From Chloroflexota bacterium (lineage in GTDB: Bacteria > Chloroflexota > Anaerolineae > Anaerolineales > Villigracilaceae): a stretch of DNA of 64,000 nucleotides. The stretch spans positions 240,873 to 304,872 of the forward strand of contig JACRPQ010000005.1 of NCBI GenBank assembly GCA_016223135.1. Direction: 5' to 3'. Below, in pieces: positions 1,030-34,700 of this stretch (positions within the stretch are counted from its first letter, which is position 1; every line of letters starts with the position of its first letter). Position numbers and translations under genes: made by a program. The notes beneath the pieces were generated by a model that saw only the letters and a list, made by a program, of their open reading frames with translations, was not told the DNA's origin and searched no databases.

Positions 1030-2823
1030 ATGGCAAACATTCATCAATTTGACGTGGTCGTCGTTGGCGCGGGCGGCGCAGGACTCACGGCTGGGCTCTA
1101 CGCCTCGCGCACGGCAAAGACCGCCGTCATCAGCAAACTCTATCCCACCCGCTCGCACACGGGCGCGGCGCAGGGCGGCATCGGCGCGGCGCTCGGCAAC
1201 CTTGAGGAAGACCGTCCCGAATGGCACACCTACGATACGGTCAAAGGTTCCGATTATCTTGGCGATCAGGACGCCATCGAGTTCATGTGCAACGAGGCGC
1301 CGCAGATCGTCTATGAACTCGAACACATGGGTCTGCCCTTCGACCGCACCCCCGATGGGCGCATCGCCCAGCGACCGTTCGGCGGTCACACCAACAACGT
1401 GACCGGCAAACCTGTGCGGCGCGCCTGTCACGCCGCCGACCGCACCGGTCACATGATTTTGCAGACGCTCTATCAGCAATGCCTGAAGAACAACGTCAAC
1501 TTCTTCGATGAATTCCAGGTGGTGGATGTTCTCATCGAGAACGGCAAAGCCGCCGGCGTGGTTGCGCTCGAAATCGCCACCAGCGAACTGCACGTCTTCC
1601 ATGCCAAAGCGGTCATCTTTGCCACCGGCGGACATGGGCGCATTTGGGAAATCACCTCCAACGCCTATGCGTTGACCGGCGACGGTATTGCGGTGGCATT
1701 GCGGCGCGGCGTTCCCGCCGAAGACATGGAATTCTTCCAGTTCCATCCCACCGGCATTTACAAACTCGGCATCCTCATCACCGAGGGCGTGCGCGGCGAA
1801 GGCGGCGTGCTGATCAACGACAAGGGCGAGCGCTTCATGGAAAAGTACGCTCCCAAAGTGAAAGACCTTGCCTCGCGCGACGTGGTCAGCCGCTCCATCT
1901 ATCTCGAAATCCGCGAGGGACGCGGCATCAACGGATCGAACTATGTGTACCTCGATGTCCGCCCCGAAACGGTGAACAAATACGCCGCGCTGGACGGACG
2001 CACCAACCCCGACGGCTCGCCCTACACAGTGACGGGCGAACAAATTCTCCAGAAACTGCCCGACATCATTGACTTCTGCCGCACTTATCTCGGCGTGGAC
2101 CCCGTCACCCAGCCCATGCCCATTCAGCCGACGGCGCATTACGCCATGGGCGGCATTCCCACCAACATGTATGGCGAGGTGGTGATTGACGAGAAGAACA
2201 CCGTCATGCCCGGTCTATACGCGGCGGGCGAGTGCGCTTGCGTTTCCGTGCACGGCGCCAACCGCCTCGGCACCAACTCCCTGCTCGACATCGTGGTCTT
2301 TGGCAAATACGCGGGCATCAAAGCCGCCGAATACGCCAACGGCGCGGACTTCACGCCCCTGCCCGCCGACCCCGACGGATTCGCCCGCCAACAGTTCGAC
2401 CGCCTGCGCAACAATCAGGGAAACGAAAACGTCTTCCAAATCAGCCAGGAAATGAAAAGGGAAATGTTCGATAACATGGGCGTCTTCCGCACCGCCGAAA
2501 CGATGACCCATGCCCTGAACAAAATCCATGAGTTGCAGGAACGCGCCAAACACATCAAACTGACCGATACGGGCAAGGTCTTCAACACCGAACTGCTCAA
2601 CGCCTGGGAGTTGACCAACCTGCTCGACCTCGCTGAAGTCACCACCGTCTCGGCGTTGGCGCGGCAGGAAAGCCGCGGCGGTCACGCCCGCGAGGACTTC
2701 CCCAAGCGCGACGACGTCAACTGGCTCAAACACACCCTCGCCTGGAAACAAAACGGCAAAGTCACGCTTGGTTACAAGCCCGTCGTCATCACCAAATACC
2801 AGCCAAAGGAAAGAGTTTATTAG
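1030..2823 (+). CDS. sdhA: Succinate dehydrogenase flavoprotein subunit SdhA
   Basis: Catalytic subunit that oxidises succinate to fumarate with covalently bound FAD. 597 residues, normal for SdhA. The N-terminus has the dinucleotide motif VVGAGGAGL (about residues 11-19), then [10 protein letters not shown] (41-50), whose His43 is the expected FAD attachment site. The conserved HPTGIY and [10 protein letters not shown] segments are present. The C-terminal helical domain is complete, ending KERVY. The stop codon is directly followed by the sdhB leader. An attached-FAD SdhA together with two membrane anchors fits a respiratory quinone reductase; the direction (succinate oxidation or fumarate reduction) cannot be decided from sequence. 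Confidence 0.97.
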
Positions 2824-2834
2824 TGAGGACCGCC

Positions 2835-3542
2835 ATGCAGGTAACACTGAAAATCTTCCGCTACCGCCCCGAAGTGGATAAGACCTTCCACTATGAAACC
2901 TACACCCTCGAAGCCGCCGAAACCGACCGCGTGCTGGACGTGCTGGAGCGCGTCAAAGGCGAACTGGATGGCTCGCTCTCCTTCCGCCGTTCGTGCGCGC
3001 ACGGCGTGTGCGGCTCGGATGCCGTGCGCATCAACGGGCGCAACATGCTCGCCTGCAAAACCCTCATCCGCGACGTGGGCGACAAGATCACGGTCGAACC
3101 GCTGCTTGGCTTGAAGGTGATCAAAGACCTGATTGTGGACATGGAGCCGTTCTTCGACAACTACAAGAAGATACTCCCCTACTTTATCAACGACTCGCCG
3201 CTTCCTGCCGACGGGAAGGAGCGCCTGCAATCGCCCGAAGAGCGCGCCCGCTTCGACGAGACGACCAAGTGCATCCTGTGCGCCGCCTGCACCACCTCCT
3301 GCCCGTCCTTCTGGGCGAGCGACCAGTATTACGGTCCTGCCGCGTTGGTGACCGCCCACCGCTTCATCTTCGACAGCCGCGATGAAGCCGCCGCCGAGCG
3401 CTTACACATCCTCGCCGAGACCGACGGTCTGGCGCGCTGTCACACCGCTTATAACTGCACGCTCGCCTGCCCGCGTGAGATTCACATCACGAAGGCAATT
3501 GGCGAATTGAAGTTGGCAACGATTACGGGGAAGGTGGGGTAG
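2835..3542 (+). CDS. sdhB: Succinate dehydrogenase iron-sulfur subunit SdhB
   Basis: Electron-transfer subunit carrying [2Fe-2S], [4Fe-4S] and [3Fe-4S] clusters. 235 residues from ATG 2835. The ferredoxin domain has CAHGVCGSD (Cys54, Cys59, Asp62) and Cys74; the Asp in place of the third Cys is also found in E. coli SdhB. The C-terminal domain has CILCAACTTSCP and CHTAYNCTLACP for the other two clusters. GTG at 2823, overlapping the sdhA stop, is an alternative start, but MQVTLKIF from ATG 2835 is the typical N-terminus. Last gene of the operon, followed by an intrinsic terminator. Confidence 0.96.
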   Translation: MQVTLKIFRYRPEVDKTFHYETYTLEAAETDRVLDVLERVKGELDGSLSFRRSCAHGVCGSDAVRINGRNMLACKTLIRDVGDKITVEPLLGLKVIKDLIVDMEPFFDNYKKILPYFINDSPLPADGKERLQSPEERARFDETTKCILCAACTTSCPSFWASDQYYGPAALVTAHRFIFDSRDEAAAERLHILAETDGLARCHTAYNCTLACPREIHITKAIGELKLATITGKVG

Positions 3543-29715: not shown

Positions 29716-32166
29716 TTAATAAACAGGCAGGGGAACGCCCAAACCATTCAGCGCCACTTGGGAGGGGTCCCTGTGCCAGATGCCCGCCACCTTTGCGCCG
29801 CATTGCGGACATTTCCCTTCGCCCGTAATGTGATACTCCAAAATGACATATCCCCGCCTCCGAATCAACGGACGATTGCATTCCGCGCAAAAGGTATTTT
29901 CATACTCCCCAACCTGCCCCGGCAAATTGCCCGCATAGACGTATTTCAACCCCGCCTCACGCCCGATCTCCGCCGCGCGCAGGAGCGTCTTGGCGTCCGT
30001 ATTATCGGGGTCGGTCATCTTGTAATCCTTGTGGAAGGCGGTCACATGCCAGGGAATATCGCGCGAGACGCCCGCGATGAAGCGCGCCGCATCCCACAAT
30101 TCCTCGTTCGAATCGTTGAAGCCGGGGATGGTCAACGTCACCACCTCCACCCACAGCCCCATCTCGTGCGCGCGCTGGATGCCATCCAGCGTGTTTTGCA
30201 AAACGCCGCCCAGTTTGCGATAATTCTTATCGCTCATGCACTTCAAATCCACTTTGTACGCTGAAAGATATGGCGCAAGATACTCCATCACTTCCGGCGT
30301 ATTGTTTCCATTCGAGACATAGGCGCACATCAAACCCGCCGCCTTCGCCTCCTTGAAAATCGCCACCGCCCACTCGCTCGTAATCAACGGCTCGTTATAA
30401 GAGGAGACCACCACCGAAGCCTTCGTCCGCTGCGCCAGCCGCACCATCTCCTGCGGCGTGATCTTGCGGATATAATGCGCCGAGACATCCGCCGCCGGGT
30501 CGCGCATGGCTTGGGAGGTCAACCAGTTTTGGCAATTCGAAACGAGCAGGAAGTTGACGAGATAATTGTGTTCCTCCTCAACCTCCATGTTATATACCTG
30601 CCCTTCAAAGGATTCGCTTTCGATTTCCCGGATTGGGATTAGGTAATAATCTTCAGTCTCCACGAAATTGCGCTTTGCGGCGCTGTCTTCGTACCAGACC
30701 ACTGAATACTGATGCGGCGCACGTCTTACTTGACGCCCCTGAATCCTGCTTGTTTCAGCCATTTCCACATCATAAACCGATGCAAAGTATCCGCATTTCA
30801 AAGCCAGCCAGGCAATGCCGTAAGCCAGTTCTCTCGAAACAGTTGTCGAACTAACCTTTCCATTCGGGAAGCGATGCCCATCTCCTCGAACATAAGCATC
30901 GAGGAATGCCTTAACCACCTCACGCGGCGCATCGAAAAACATCTCCGGCACGCGTTTCCTGGTTGATTGATCGCCCGCCAGGGATTTCAACAAGAGCGCC
31001 AGCGACGCCTTTGCAACCGACACGCTCAACGTCGTTTGCCGGTTTACCAGCCGAGCGCCAACTCCAAAGCAAAGGCGCAAGAGGGAAACCACCCGTTCTG
31101 CCAATTCGGTTTCCGCCTTCGAAAAACTGAAGTTAATCGAAAAACTATTCGGGCGTTTTTTATCCTTCTGGATATTCCCTTCCGCACAGTAATATCCCAG
31201 CAATTCCGCAACTTCCACCCCCACGTCAATTTTGAGCGGAATGCCCGGTCTCCTCTCGTTGGGGAATCGCAAAGCGCCGTTTTCAACGTACGCGTGAAAT
31301 GTCTTGGTATCCGTAACACTGCCATTTCGGATTTTGCGGCGTAAATGACGAATGTAAGAACCGCTCTTTCGGAGCATTTCTCCAATCTGGCGTGAGGATT
31401 TTCCCTCGGCAGTCATATCCATGATTTTCTGCATCTCATCGCGGGATAATTTCCATGGTGTTCGATACGTCACTCGATGAGACCCGATTAGACTCTCAAC
31501 GTCAATCACCTGCGGCGATGAAAAGTGATACTTTTTAGGCGCTGCCAGATAATGCTTGTGGGTCAAATCCCTGGCGCGGACCAATTGCGGTTCTTCATGC
31601 GGACTGCAAGTTGCATATATACGATGATCGGGCGTGCAGCGAATGGCGGGCAGATAATAAGGTTTTATCTTCACCAAACCGCCTCGATACGAATGGCGGA
31701 AAACGCCTCTCACTTCCCTGAGAGCGCCAGAAGAAGTAACTGCCTTTAGATTGTGCGGGAACGATATTTCCCCGTCAGGTTGTTGGCTGCGGGAGACTCC
31801 AAGTTCAAAAGCATCCTCCAATGTCATTGGTCCGTGATTAGTAATGACCATCGCATCCCCTGTAAAACAGTAACTGCAATGAAAATCACATCCCAGCATT
31901 CCAAAGGTCAAAGCGTTGGCGCTGGGCAGCACATGAAAGAACGGCTTCTTCTCGATGGGGTCGCTTTGCAGCGCCGCCACATAACCGTACGGCACGCGCA
32001 ACTCCCCTCCCTTGTTGAACCGCACCTGACAAATCCCCCGCCGTCCCTCGCGAATCTTGCACCGATGCCCGCAGGCATGACAAACAACCGTGTTGTCGGG
32101 CAGTTTTTCGTATAACTCCCCCGGCGCTGTCAACGTATCCAATAAATCAGCGATGGATGTAGCCAT
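29716..32166 (-). CDS. amrS: AmmeMemoRadiSam-type radical SAM enzyme AmrS, intein-containing precursor
   Basis: 816-residue precursor that after splicing leaves a 371-residue radical SAM protein. Extein N-part (residues 1-99): a Cys-rich entry (CHACGHRC) and the start of the cluster motif GCDFHCSY. The intein occupies residues 100-544. The C-part starts CQNWLTSQAM and contains SYNEPLITSEW, YVSNGNNTPEV, VTLTIPGFNDS and a zinc-ribbon-like end (CAECNRPL...CPQCG), all typical of AmrS. ATG 32166 opens the family-like N-terminus MATSIADLL; a longer upstream reading has non-protein-like composition. The partner genes of the AmmeMemoRadiSam set are not in the window. The function of the family is unsettled. 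Divergent from mobA. Confidence 0.9.
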   Translation of the reverse strand: MATSIADLLDTLTAPGELYEKLPDNTVVCHACGHRCKIREGRRGICQVRFNKGGELRVPYGYVAALQSDPIEKKPFFHVLPSANALTFGMLGCDFHCSYCFTGDAMVITNHGPMTLEDAFELGVSRSQQPDGEISFPHNLKAVTSSGALREVRGVFRHSYRGGLVKIKPYYLPAIRCTPDHRIYATCSPHEEPQLVRARDLTHKHYLAAPKKYHFSSPQVIDVESLIGSHRVTYRTPWKLSRDEMQKIMDMTAEGKSSRQIGEMLRKSGSYIRHLRRKIRNGSVTDTKTFHAYVENGALRFPNERRPGIPLKIDVGVEVAELLGYYCAEGNIQKDKKRPNSFSINFSFSKAETELAERVVSLLRLCFGVGARLVNRQTTLSVSVAKASLALLLKSLAGDQSTRKRVPEMFFDAPREVVKAFLDAYVRGDGHRFPNGKVSSTTVSRELAYGIAWLALKCGYFASVYDVEMAETSRIQGRQVRRAPHQYSVVWYEDSAAKRNFVETEDYYLIPIREIESESFEGQVYNMEVEEEHNYLVNFLLVSNCQNWLTSQAMRDPAADVSAHYIRKITPQEMVRLAQRTKASVVVSSYNEPLITSEWAVAIFKEAKAAGLMCAYVSNGNNTPEVMEYLAPYLSAYKVDLKCMSDKNYRKLGGVLQNTLDGIQRAHEMGLWVEVVTLTIPGFNDSNEELWDAARFIAGVSRDIPWHVTAFHKDYKMTDPDNTDAKTLLRAAEIGREAGLKYVYAGNLPGQVGEYENTFCAECNRPLIRRRGYVILEYHITGEGKCPQCGAKVAGIWHRDPSQVALNGLGVPLPVY
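30535..31869 (-). mobile_element. Intein with LAGLIDADG homing endonuclease in AmrS
   Basis: 445 residues in frame. Splicing residues: Cys1 (CFTGDAMVI), block B TPDH (residues 79-82, Thr and His), block F around VYNMEVEEEHNYLV, terminal Asn445 and Cys+1 in the extein. The penultimate residue is Ser instead of the usual His. The endonuclease has two LAGLIDADG motifs, LLGYYCAEGN (~223-232) and FLDAYVRGDG (~322-331), both keeping the acidic residue, so it may be active. A helix-turn-helix-like stretch (SSRQIGEMLRKSGSYI, ~158-173) precedes them. The DNA is visibly more AT-rich than the flanking extein DNA, which suggests acquisition by transfer. Confidence 0.92.
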
Positions 32167-32265: not shown

Positions 32266-32868
32266 ATGCTCACTCTTTGCATTCAGGCAGGCGGCGCCTC
32301 CTCCCGCATGGGCGAAGACAAGGCGCTCAAACCTTTTCTTGGGCGTCCCCTCATTCAGCGTGTCATTGAGCGGCTCGCCCCCCTTGCGGACGAAATCATC
32401 GTGACGACCAACCGCCCGGCCGATTACGCCTTCCTCAACCTGCGCCTCGTTTCGGACCTCAAGCCTGGTCGCGGCGCCCTCGGCGGACTCTACACTGCCA
32501 TCGCTTCTGCCACGCATCCCCTCGTCGCCGTCGTCGCTTGCGATATGCCCTTCGCCAGTTCAAGGCTGATCGAAGCGATGACCGGGCTCCTCGTCCGGGA
32601 AGAAGCGGATGTGGTCATTCCCAAAAGTGCGGAGGGCTACGAACCGTTCCACGCCGTCTATCGCCGCGAGACCTGTCTTTCCGCTATCGAATCCGCCCTA
32701 CGCGCCGATCAATGGAAGGTCATCGCCTGGTTTCCCGCGGTCAGGGTGCGTGAATTGGCTGTTGACGAATTGTCGTCCTATACCCCTGACGGGTTGGCAT
32801 TTTGGAACGTCAACACTCCCCAAGAGTTCGCCGAAGCAGAGCGCATTGCTTTAACAGCCAACGACTAA
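32266..32868 (+). CDS. mobA: Molybdenum cofactor guanylyltransferase MobA
   Basis: 200 residues. Transfers GMP to molybdopterin to give the guanine-dinucleotide form of the cofactor. The nucleotide-binding N-terminus reads CIQAGGASSRMGEDKAL, as in MobA (LAGGxSxRMGxDKA), with FLGRPLIQRV after it; GALGGLYTAI and VACDMPFAS are the other conserved segments. It is transcribed away from amrS with about 100 bases between the starts. MoaA is encoded at the far end of the window, consistent with molybdoenzymes in this organism. Confidence 0.92.
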   Translation: MLTLCIQAGGASSRMGEDKALKPFLGRPLIQRVIERLAPLADEIIVTTNRPADYAFLNLRLVSDLKPGRGALGGLYTAIASATHPLVAVVACDMPFASSRLIEAMTGLLVREEADVVIPKSAEGYEPFHAVYRRETCLSAIESALRADQWKVIAWFPAVRVRELAVDELSSYTPDGLAFWNVNTPQEFAEAERIALTAND

Positions 32869-33440: not shown

Positions 33441-34700
33441 ATGTCTTTCGATCTTGAAACCATTCGTCAGCAATTCCCCGCACTCGACCGCCCGGCAATC
33501 TTTTTGGATAACCCCGCCGGCACGCAAATCTCCAAGCCCAGCCTCGACCGCATCAACCGCTACCTGCTCGAATGCAACGCCAACCATGAGGGGTTATTCG
33601 AGACCAGCCGCCGCTCCGACGAAATTCTTCACGAGGCGCACGCGGCAATGGCGGATTTCCTCAACGCCTCGCGCCCGGAGGAAATCATCTTCGGCAACAA
33701 CATGACCACGCTGACTCTACACATCTCGCGCTCGCTGGCGCGGACCCTGCAGCCCGGCGACCATATCCTGGTCACCCGCCTCGACCATGACGCCAATATC
33801 GCTCCCTGGATGCTGGTTGCGGAGGATAGAGGCTGCACTCTGCTCTGGGTGGATATTGACGTGGAGCAGGGCACACTCGATCTCGATGATTTTGCGCGGG
33901 CGCTGGAGAAAAAGCCTAAGATCGCGGCGTTTGGCTATGCCTCGAACCTGCTGGGAACGGTTAACCCGGTCGAGAAACTAACGAAGATGGCGCATGAGGC
34001 AGGCGCGCTGGTGTACATCGACGCGGTGCAGTACGCGCCGCATGGTCCCATTGATGTGCAGAAGATTGGCTGTGATTTCCTCGTTTGCAGCGCCTATAAG
34101 TTCTTCGGTCCGCACGCGGGGGCGTTGTATGGGAAGTATGACCTGTTGAATGAGTTGAAGGCGTACAAAGTCCGCCCAGCCTCGGACGAACTGCCGCACA
34201 AATTCGAGACCGGCACCCAAAACCACGAGGGTATTGCGGGCGTGCTGGGGGCGCTGGAATACATCGAGTGGCTGGGCAGGCAATTTGGGGCGGAGCAGGA
34301 ATCGGCGTGGAAGGAGGCGGGGTTCTCCGGTCGGCGCTTGGAACTCAAGAAGGGCATGTCGGCGATGCAGGCTTACGAGAAGCAGTTATCCAAAAAGTTG
34401 ATCGGCATCATCGAATCTGTGCCGGGGACGCGCATTCACGGCATCACGGATTTGGAACGTCTCGATGAGCGCGTACCGACCGTCTCGTTCACGGTGCCGG
34501 GCAAAGACCCGGCGCACATTGCCGAGGAACTTGGCAAGCACGGGATTTATGTTTGGAACGGTCACAATTATGCGCTCGCCATTGTGGAACGCATGGGGCT
34601 GCTGGAAGCGGGCGGCATGGTGCGCGTGGGACCGGTGCACTACAACACGCCGGAGGAATTGGAGAAGTTTGGGGAGGTGTTGGAGAAGGTGTTGAAATAG
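33441..34700 (+). CDS. Cysteine-desulfurase-like class V aminotransferase
   Basis: 419 residues, PLP enzyme of fold type I. AIFLDNPAGTQISK opens the protein; HDANIAPW, IDAVQYAPHGPIDVQ and the lysine motif SAYKFFGPHAGALYG (Schiff-base Lys) are visible, and the C-terminal small domain includes RVPTVSFTVPGKDP. It resembles the cysteine-desulfurase family subgroup with an insert before the small domain, which may act on cysteine or related amino acids. There are no iron-sulfur assembly genes nearby, so a role in cluster biogenesis is not supported. It lies alone, downstream of the inverted repeat at 33.35 kb. Confidence 0.88.
   Translation: MSFDLETIRQQFPALDRPAIFLDNPAGTQISKPSLDRINRYLLECNANHEGLFETSRRSDEILHEAHAAMADFLNASRPEEIIFGNNMTTLTLHISRSLARTLQPGDHILVTRLDHDANIAPWMLVAEDRGCTLLWVDIDVEQGTLDLDDFARALEKKPKIAAFGYASNLLGTVNPVEKLTKMAHEAGALVYIDAVQYAPHGPIDVQKIGCDFLVCSAYKFFGPHAGALYGKYDLLNELKAYKVRPASDELPHKFETGTQNHEGIAGVLGALEYIEWLGRQFGAEQESAWKEAGFSGRRLELKKGMSAMQAYEKQLSKKLIGIIESVPGTRIHGITDLERLDERVPTVSFTVPGKDPAHIAEELGKHGIYVWNGHNYALAIVERMGLLEAGGMVRVGPVHYNTPEELEKFGEVLEKVLK

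Follow-up and report, generated by a model that had tools for sequence, protein, structure and literature searches.

A predicted homing intein at the iron-sulfur cluster motif of AmrS and homologous inteins at the same cysteine of other radical-SAM enzymes

The analysed window is a stretch of 64,000 nucleotides from a Chloroflexota genome and contains an amrS gene on its minus strand (29716-32166 including the stop codon), which encodes a precursor of 816 amino acids. The ATG start at 32166 is consistent with the starts chosen for homologs. The gene was assigned based on the NCBIfam model TIGR04337 (AmmeMemoSam_rS; 258.3 bits, cut-off 220), and Pfam recognizes a Radical_SAM domain in the C-terminal portion of the precursor. 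Adjoining amrS on the plus strand are two open reading frames (32266-32868 and 33441-34700); we take the product of the first to resemble a MobA-type nucleotidyltransferase and that of the second a cysteine-desulfurase-like aminotransferase. A search of the own genome returned this single AmrS and no second match, while the Memo model TIGR04336 matches elsewhere in the genome (G000:C17, 244 bits).

An earlier sequence-only reading had placed a 445-residue in-frame insertion after Tyr99, and reading of the junctions bears out both its coordinates and its lengths. All parts of the precursor lie on the minus strand, which the earlier reading had left unnamed: an N-extein (residues 1-99; 31870-32166) ending in CDFHCSY and delimited by alignment with intein-free homologs, the intein itself (residues 100-544, 445 aa; 30535-31869) as defined by Pfam, NCBIfam and the junctions, and a C-extein (residues 545-816; 29719-30534) beginning with CQNWLTS and delimited by Pfam together with the same type of alignment. 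The junctions read GCDFHCSY/CFTGD on the N side and LLVSN/CQNW on the C side. The insertion thereby interrupts the CxxxCxxC cluster motif in front of its third cysteine. In the precursor, the motif is C93-x3-C97-x2-C100, and in the spliced form it becomes C93-x3-C97-x2-C545, which agrees with the proposed swap of Cys1 and Cys+1 as the third cysteine. The codons involved (minus strand) are those of Cys93, the first motif cysteine (31888-31890); Cys97, the second motif cysteine and intein position -3 (31876-31878); Cys100, which is the Cys1 of the intein and fills the third place in the precursor (31867-31869; Cys in 47/47 relatives); and Cys545, or Cys+1, which takes this place once spliced (30532-30534).

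The profile matches and catalytic residues of the insertion support the idea of an intein with a homing endonuclease. Pfam detects a splicing fold (Intein_splicing, PF14890; 44.6 bits, cut-off 35.8) and LAGLIDADG_3 (46.1 bits, cut-off 22.5), and NCBIfam detects intein_Nterm (27.4 bits, cut-off 24.5); the C-terminal model TIGR01443 (intein_Cterm) stays below its cut-off (11.3 bits, cut-off 15.6). The residues of a class 1 intein are all present, namely Cys1, the TxxH of block B (TPDH, 31624-31635, with T and H in 47/47 relatives), a C-terminal Asn and Cys+1. Blocks F and G (30535-30597) contain the block-F His and end in LLVSN, with Asn544 as the terminal residue and Ser instead of the usual His as the penultimate one. 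A penultimate His is usual but not obligatory in class 1 inteins. The endonuclease region carries two LAGLIDADG motifs with acidic catalytic residues, AELLGYYCAEGN (31174-31209) with Glu329 (intein Glu230) and AFLDAYVRGDGH (30874-30909) with Asp429 (intein Asp330). Between the splicing and endonuclease parts, residues 239-272 (31351-31452) form an HTH-like segment that could be a DNA-binding accessory (HTH_38, 21.0 bits with the intein alone, below the cut-off of 27). All of these features are on the minus strand.

The precursor was modelled with AlphaFold2 from 29 sequences (mean pLDDT 86, pTM 0.58), and both modules are predicted to fold well individually. The top Foldseek match was the TliVMA intein (7qsu, E 2e-24, target TM 0.78), and other endonuclease-bearing inteins were found as well, while the radical-SAM half matches the PFL-activating enzyme 3c8f and also HydE. 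The motif regions are of low confidence (residues 92-98 and 546-566 under 50). A reading of cluster geometry from the model was rejected because these loops are too uncertain, and the model is uninformative on cluster binding.

The distribution of the insertion was analyzed in 61 genomes, comprising the own genome and 60 relatives. Matches extend through the intein in 7/61 genomes (G000, G004, G005, G007, G008, G019 and G039), while in 42 further genomes the match to the AmrS C-extein (E 1e-99 or better) stops short of it. Within the own genus, five of 18 genomes carry the intein and 13 have an empty site. The junction was read in 23 of the 42 intein-free genes, including all 13 empty members of the genus, and in every case (23/23) the joined exteins align without a gap near the junction at an identity of 69-86%. 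Alignment of homologs, as the sequence-only reading had suggested, confirms the insertion boundaries.

Furthermore, a profile built from seven inteins was scanned against named genomes and yielded 45 loci. In 42 of these, the intein is immediately flanked on one or both sides by a piece of an AmrS extein; L071-L073 have hosts other than AmrS. The records are labelled Chloroflexi/Chloroflexota, Acidobacteria, Rokuibacteriota, Latescibacterota, Bipolaricaulota, Armatimonadetes, Deltaproteobacteria and several archaea. Chance is not a plausible explanation, because 42/45 loci adjoin an AmrS extein and 23/23 intein-free genes are gap-free at the site. Six loci lie on viral contigs, five of which (L076-L080) were recovered by a follow-up tblastn. 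A viral origin was rejected, as the loci recovered by tblastn match only from the endonuclease on (query 205-442) with 23-29% identity.

For counting residues, we defined a set of 47 inteins at the a-site, i.e. before the third cysteine, from AmrS and the PflX-like family described below. Exact or near copies were omitted (L031-L034, L040, L112-L119 and L122; copy identities were verified for all but L113 and L114), as were loci cut by contig ends, deleted or broken in frame (L044-L046, L048, L051, L052, L054, L058, L063 and L067), L160, and the later arrivals L193-L195, L197, L198 and L208. Cys1, the T and H of TxxH, the block-F His and the terminal Asn are each present in 47/47 inteins, the opposite of what would have spoken against an intein, namely relatives with the same insertion lacking splice-site residues. 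The penultimate residue is Ser in 30, Ala in eight, Lys in four, Gly in two, His in two and Arg in one. The sequence-only reading had correctly recognized the penultimate Ser; its suggestion that this residue may slow or condition splicing finds no specific support, since His is absent from 45 of the 47 inteins and present in only two, and its lack is the norm of the group. We rejected Ser as a specific sign of slow splicing. A cysteine before the threonine of block B looks common among inteins, and Cys78, considered as a regulatory cysteine at this position, was set aside (Cys in 43/47, Leu in four).

Full-length inteins account for 36/47 of this set; both endonuclease acids are retained in 33 of these 36, and an acid is lost in the other three. 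Ten of the 47 are mini-inteins of 173-206 aa without an endonuclease, and in L127 (313 aa) the endonuclease is partly deleted. Empty, full, decaying and mini forms are all found, as a homing cycle would give.

The history of the intein is not that of its host gene. By their exteins, the window locus (L001) and L002 are the closest pair (extein tree support 98/99), with a dS of 0.34 in the N-extein and 0.52 in the C-extein. In contrast, the dS of their inteins is 2.45 in the 5' splicing part, 2.84 in the endonuclease region and saturated in the 3' splicing part. Forcing both together on the intein data was marginally rejected (AU p 0.044). The GC content is 0.498 in the intein compared to 0.568 in the extein. 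Deeper intein and extein trees also differ, and these conflicts are weak: AU tests gave p values of 0.14 and 0.128 (not rejected) and 0.005 (rejected), the last for a grouping that the intein tree supported at 80%. Since two of the three AU tests did not reject, we did not take the tree conflict to prove inter-phylum transfer and relied on the dS contrast. Together with the patchy presence in the genus (5/18), this contrast provides the distribution and non-vertical history of a mobile LAGLIDADG element.

The endonuclease region looks to be under purifying selection, with dN/dS values much like those of the exteins. For L001 and L002 the value is 0.07, and it ranges from 0.06 to 0.11 in the five of ten pairs that are unsaturated, the other five being saturated; these values are rough, because dS exceeds 1 in most comparisons of inteins. 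Exteins of five intein carriers show a dN/dS of 0.04-0.10 at unsaturated dS. From these sequence comparisons we conclude that the intein has been transferred between lineages, and rather recently, and that selection maintains its endonuclease.

Judged from the junctions, the same cysteine is occupied by predicted homologous inteins in at least four radical-SAM families, namely AmrS, a PflX-like family, Tes and a B12-binding enzyme, in both Bacteria and Archaea. In the class of the window genome, the intein profile (E 1e-20) matches 25/249 genomes. Among the loci examined from this class, AmrS a-site inteins occur in at least ten genomes and a second family, with the junctions GTIFFSWCNLRCVF/C ... 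SN/CQN, in at least five; G399 carries both. This second family, which we presume from its motif to be PflX-like, is nameless in NCBIfam and assigned to Radical_SAM in Pfam. Its loci whose homologous intein occupies this cysteine (L120-L123, L140 and L193-L195) stem from bacteria and archaea, and that of L140 is a mini-intein of 176 aa.

In the phylum of G065, 37/300 genomes gave matches, and a motif search of 30 loci (L193-L222) revealed the same junction in L193-L195 (PflX-like), L196 (AmrS), L208 (Tes), and L197 and L198 (B12-binding radical-SAM). The Tes locus scores 1327 bits with NF045703 (below its cut-off of 1700) and 669 bits with NF045702 (above its cut-off of 450), and its junctions read CNFSCWY/CLPGD ... 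LLSN/CFFFAERSGY. The B12-binding enzymes show RGCPFCCDF/CV ... HN/CWRPDYG, for L198 by sequence reading. In the phylum of G061 (matches in 34/292 genomes), a motif scan of 30 loci found this junction only in the AmrS of G061, a scan that minis or variant motif spellings could escape. A search of the own genome with the Tes model returned nothing besides AmrS.

The surprising part of the survey is an arrangement of two inteins in archaeal AmrS. In L064 (Euryarchaeota RBG_16_67_27), the order is CNWL/intein b (173 aa)/CRY/intein a (404 aa)/CQN, where intein b lies before the second cluster cysteine and intein a before the third. Intein b occurs in 15/37 genomes of the order of L064, and in eight of these 15 both inteins are present with the extein Cys-Arg-Tyr between them. 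All four junctions are visible in seven of the eight, i.e. L143 (= L064:3152-6010), L148 (= L083), L149 (= L085), L153, L154, L157 and L160; in the eighth, L161 (= L088), the contig begins within intein b. In L160, the contig stops just past CQNADI and intein b is shorter (141 aa), and the open frame of L154 is without most of the N-extein. In Pfam, too, L064, L083 and L085 each show two stretches of intein, and both inteins are minis in L149, L153 and L154. Five of the 15 genomes have intein b alone (L150 (= L086), L151, L152, L155 and L156), and two (L158 and L159) are cut too early to be classified. An assembly artefact is unlikely because the double intein is seen in eight different genomes. 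For two inteins of one host, spacings of 85 and 48 residues are given in PMC8966425, and a three-residue extein may already be published.

Some b-site elements have features of their own. In L086 (806-1327, plus strand), residue 1 of intein b is Trp and not Cys, with TxxH and the C-terminal HN retained; it is either splice-defective, or has an unusual start, or reflects a sequence error. In L087 and L089 (both 2308-3366, minus strand), a DUF559-type nuclease, above cut-off in both, replaces LAGLIDADG in intein b; MTES_1575 is above cut-off in L087 alone, and both contain a CxxC...HxxxC segment. The matches L144-L147 of the b-site profile, all from one phylum, were discarded as Hint domains in proteins unlike radical-SAM enzymes.

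We consider it highly probable that the window insertion is a class 1 cis-splicing intein with an intact-looking LAGLIDADG endonuclease between Tyr99 and the third cluster cysteine, whose splicing yields AmrS and whose endonuclease spreads the element. We infer splicing, DNA cleavage and homing from established intein chemistry: Cys1 would perform the N-S acyl shift, Cys+1 (Cys545) would then accept the N-extein, and the terminal Asn544 would cyclise, giving a 371-aa AmrS with a contiguous CDFHCSYC. The endonuclease would carry the element over to amrS alleles lacking an intein, with the strongly conserved cluster motif as the site of entry. That the insertion is instead an ordinary conserved domain of AmrS has practically no chance of being correct in view of the clean empty sites in close relatives, the splice motifs in 47/47 and the intein fold; nothing in the analysis spoke for it. 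It is also quite improbable that the intein is splicing-dead or very slow and leaves AmrS inactive in the host organism. The penultimate Ser and the C-terminal model below its cut-off would fit such an element; however, the catalytic residues are retained in 47/47, the extein dN/dS of 0.04-0.10 in the five carriers indicates that AmrS function is kept, and the own genome has no second AmrS match.

A further explanation concerns a conditional switch, in which a Cys97-Cys1 disulfide, or iron or a [4Fe-4S] cluster bound by C93, C97 and Cys1, blocks the first step, so that AmrS is made only once the cell has become reducing or the metal has left. MoaA is a radical-SAM enzyme, and its intein in P. 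abyssi, reportedly described by Callahan et al. in 2011, would sit at the third motif cysteine, judging by the Cys-3/Cys1 spacing. The disulfide between Cys-3 and Cys1 of this intein stops splicing, according to two reviews (PMC10663303, PMC3922620), and the spacing equals that of the window intein, in which Cys97 at position -3 has the MoaA-type placement relative to Cys1 by residue position. Moreover, CxxxCxxC is already complete in the precursor, at least four radical-SAM families have inteins at the identical cysteine, and the ten minis among the 47 a-site inteins indicate that some lineages retain an intein without homing. On the other hand, Cys-3 is dictated by the host motif, so that finding it conserved does not argue for a switch, and the patchy distribution in the genus and the conserved endonuclease suit selfish spread. 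Overall, we regard a switch as unlikely, and redox or iron gating through Cys-3 and Cys1 as a property that the site allows. A selfish homing element is favoured first because the intein is patchy within the genus, has diverged far more than its exteins and has a conserved endonuclease. The best-supported reading is that the window insertion is a mobile, selfish and probably active homing intein whose splicing is required for AmrS.

These findings tie intein biology to the maturation of Fe-S enzymes, as the cluster motif differs between the precursor, where the Cys1 of the intein is part of it, and the spliced protein. AmrS can probably be finished only once the insert has excised itself, at a spot invaded repeatedly across relatives. 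With the invasion of at least four radical-SAM families at the same cysteine, MoaA is no longer a lone published case but part of a testable pattern, and the natural double intein with its three-residue extein could be a test case for coupled splicing. As a tentative and rather doubtful extension, the cluster motif might be a preferred intein harbour with a built-in gate, since any intein inserted there would find a cluster cysteine of the host at -3 with which its Cys1 could pair. In the double-intein AmrS, one cysteine would then serve intein b as +1 nucleophile and intein a as the trap residue at -3, a single disulfide or metal could lock both, and its release would let two splicings build one Fe-S motif from three exteins.

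The window intein belongs to a known kind of element, and interest is raised by the wider pattern and by the double intein in one Fe-S motif. Radical-SAM inteins are known to curators, because NCBIfam models exist for intein-containing Tes and Rv2578c; among the papers found on inteins in radical-SAM enzymes and on AmmeMemoRadiSam, no title or opening of an abstract reports an AmrS intein. The archaeal VMA inteins TliVMA (7qsu) and PhoVMA (7qst) and PI-PkoII (2cw7), the top PDB matches by structure and sequence, share the splicing domain and LAGLIDADG, whereas host and insertion site differ. Intein-containing Tes (NF045703) is the best curated intein-host match after AmrS, at 71 bits and starting at Cys93 with the N-side motif included; however, Tes is an archaeal lipid enzyme (tetraether lipid synthase), and the window protein is far below the cut-off of 1700 bits. 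Intein-containing Rv2578c (NF038136) is a radical-SAM host too, likened here by its family model; NF038136 matches the archaeal b-site intein, whereas the 13 families hit by the window intein do not include it. In comparison to the P. abyssi MoaA intein, the enzyme differs and the AmrS element is predicted here from its sequence, whereas both have a radical-SAM host and a Cys-3/Cys1 pair spaced as CxxC, for which a redox trap is reported in MoaA.
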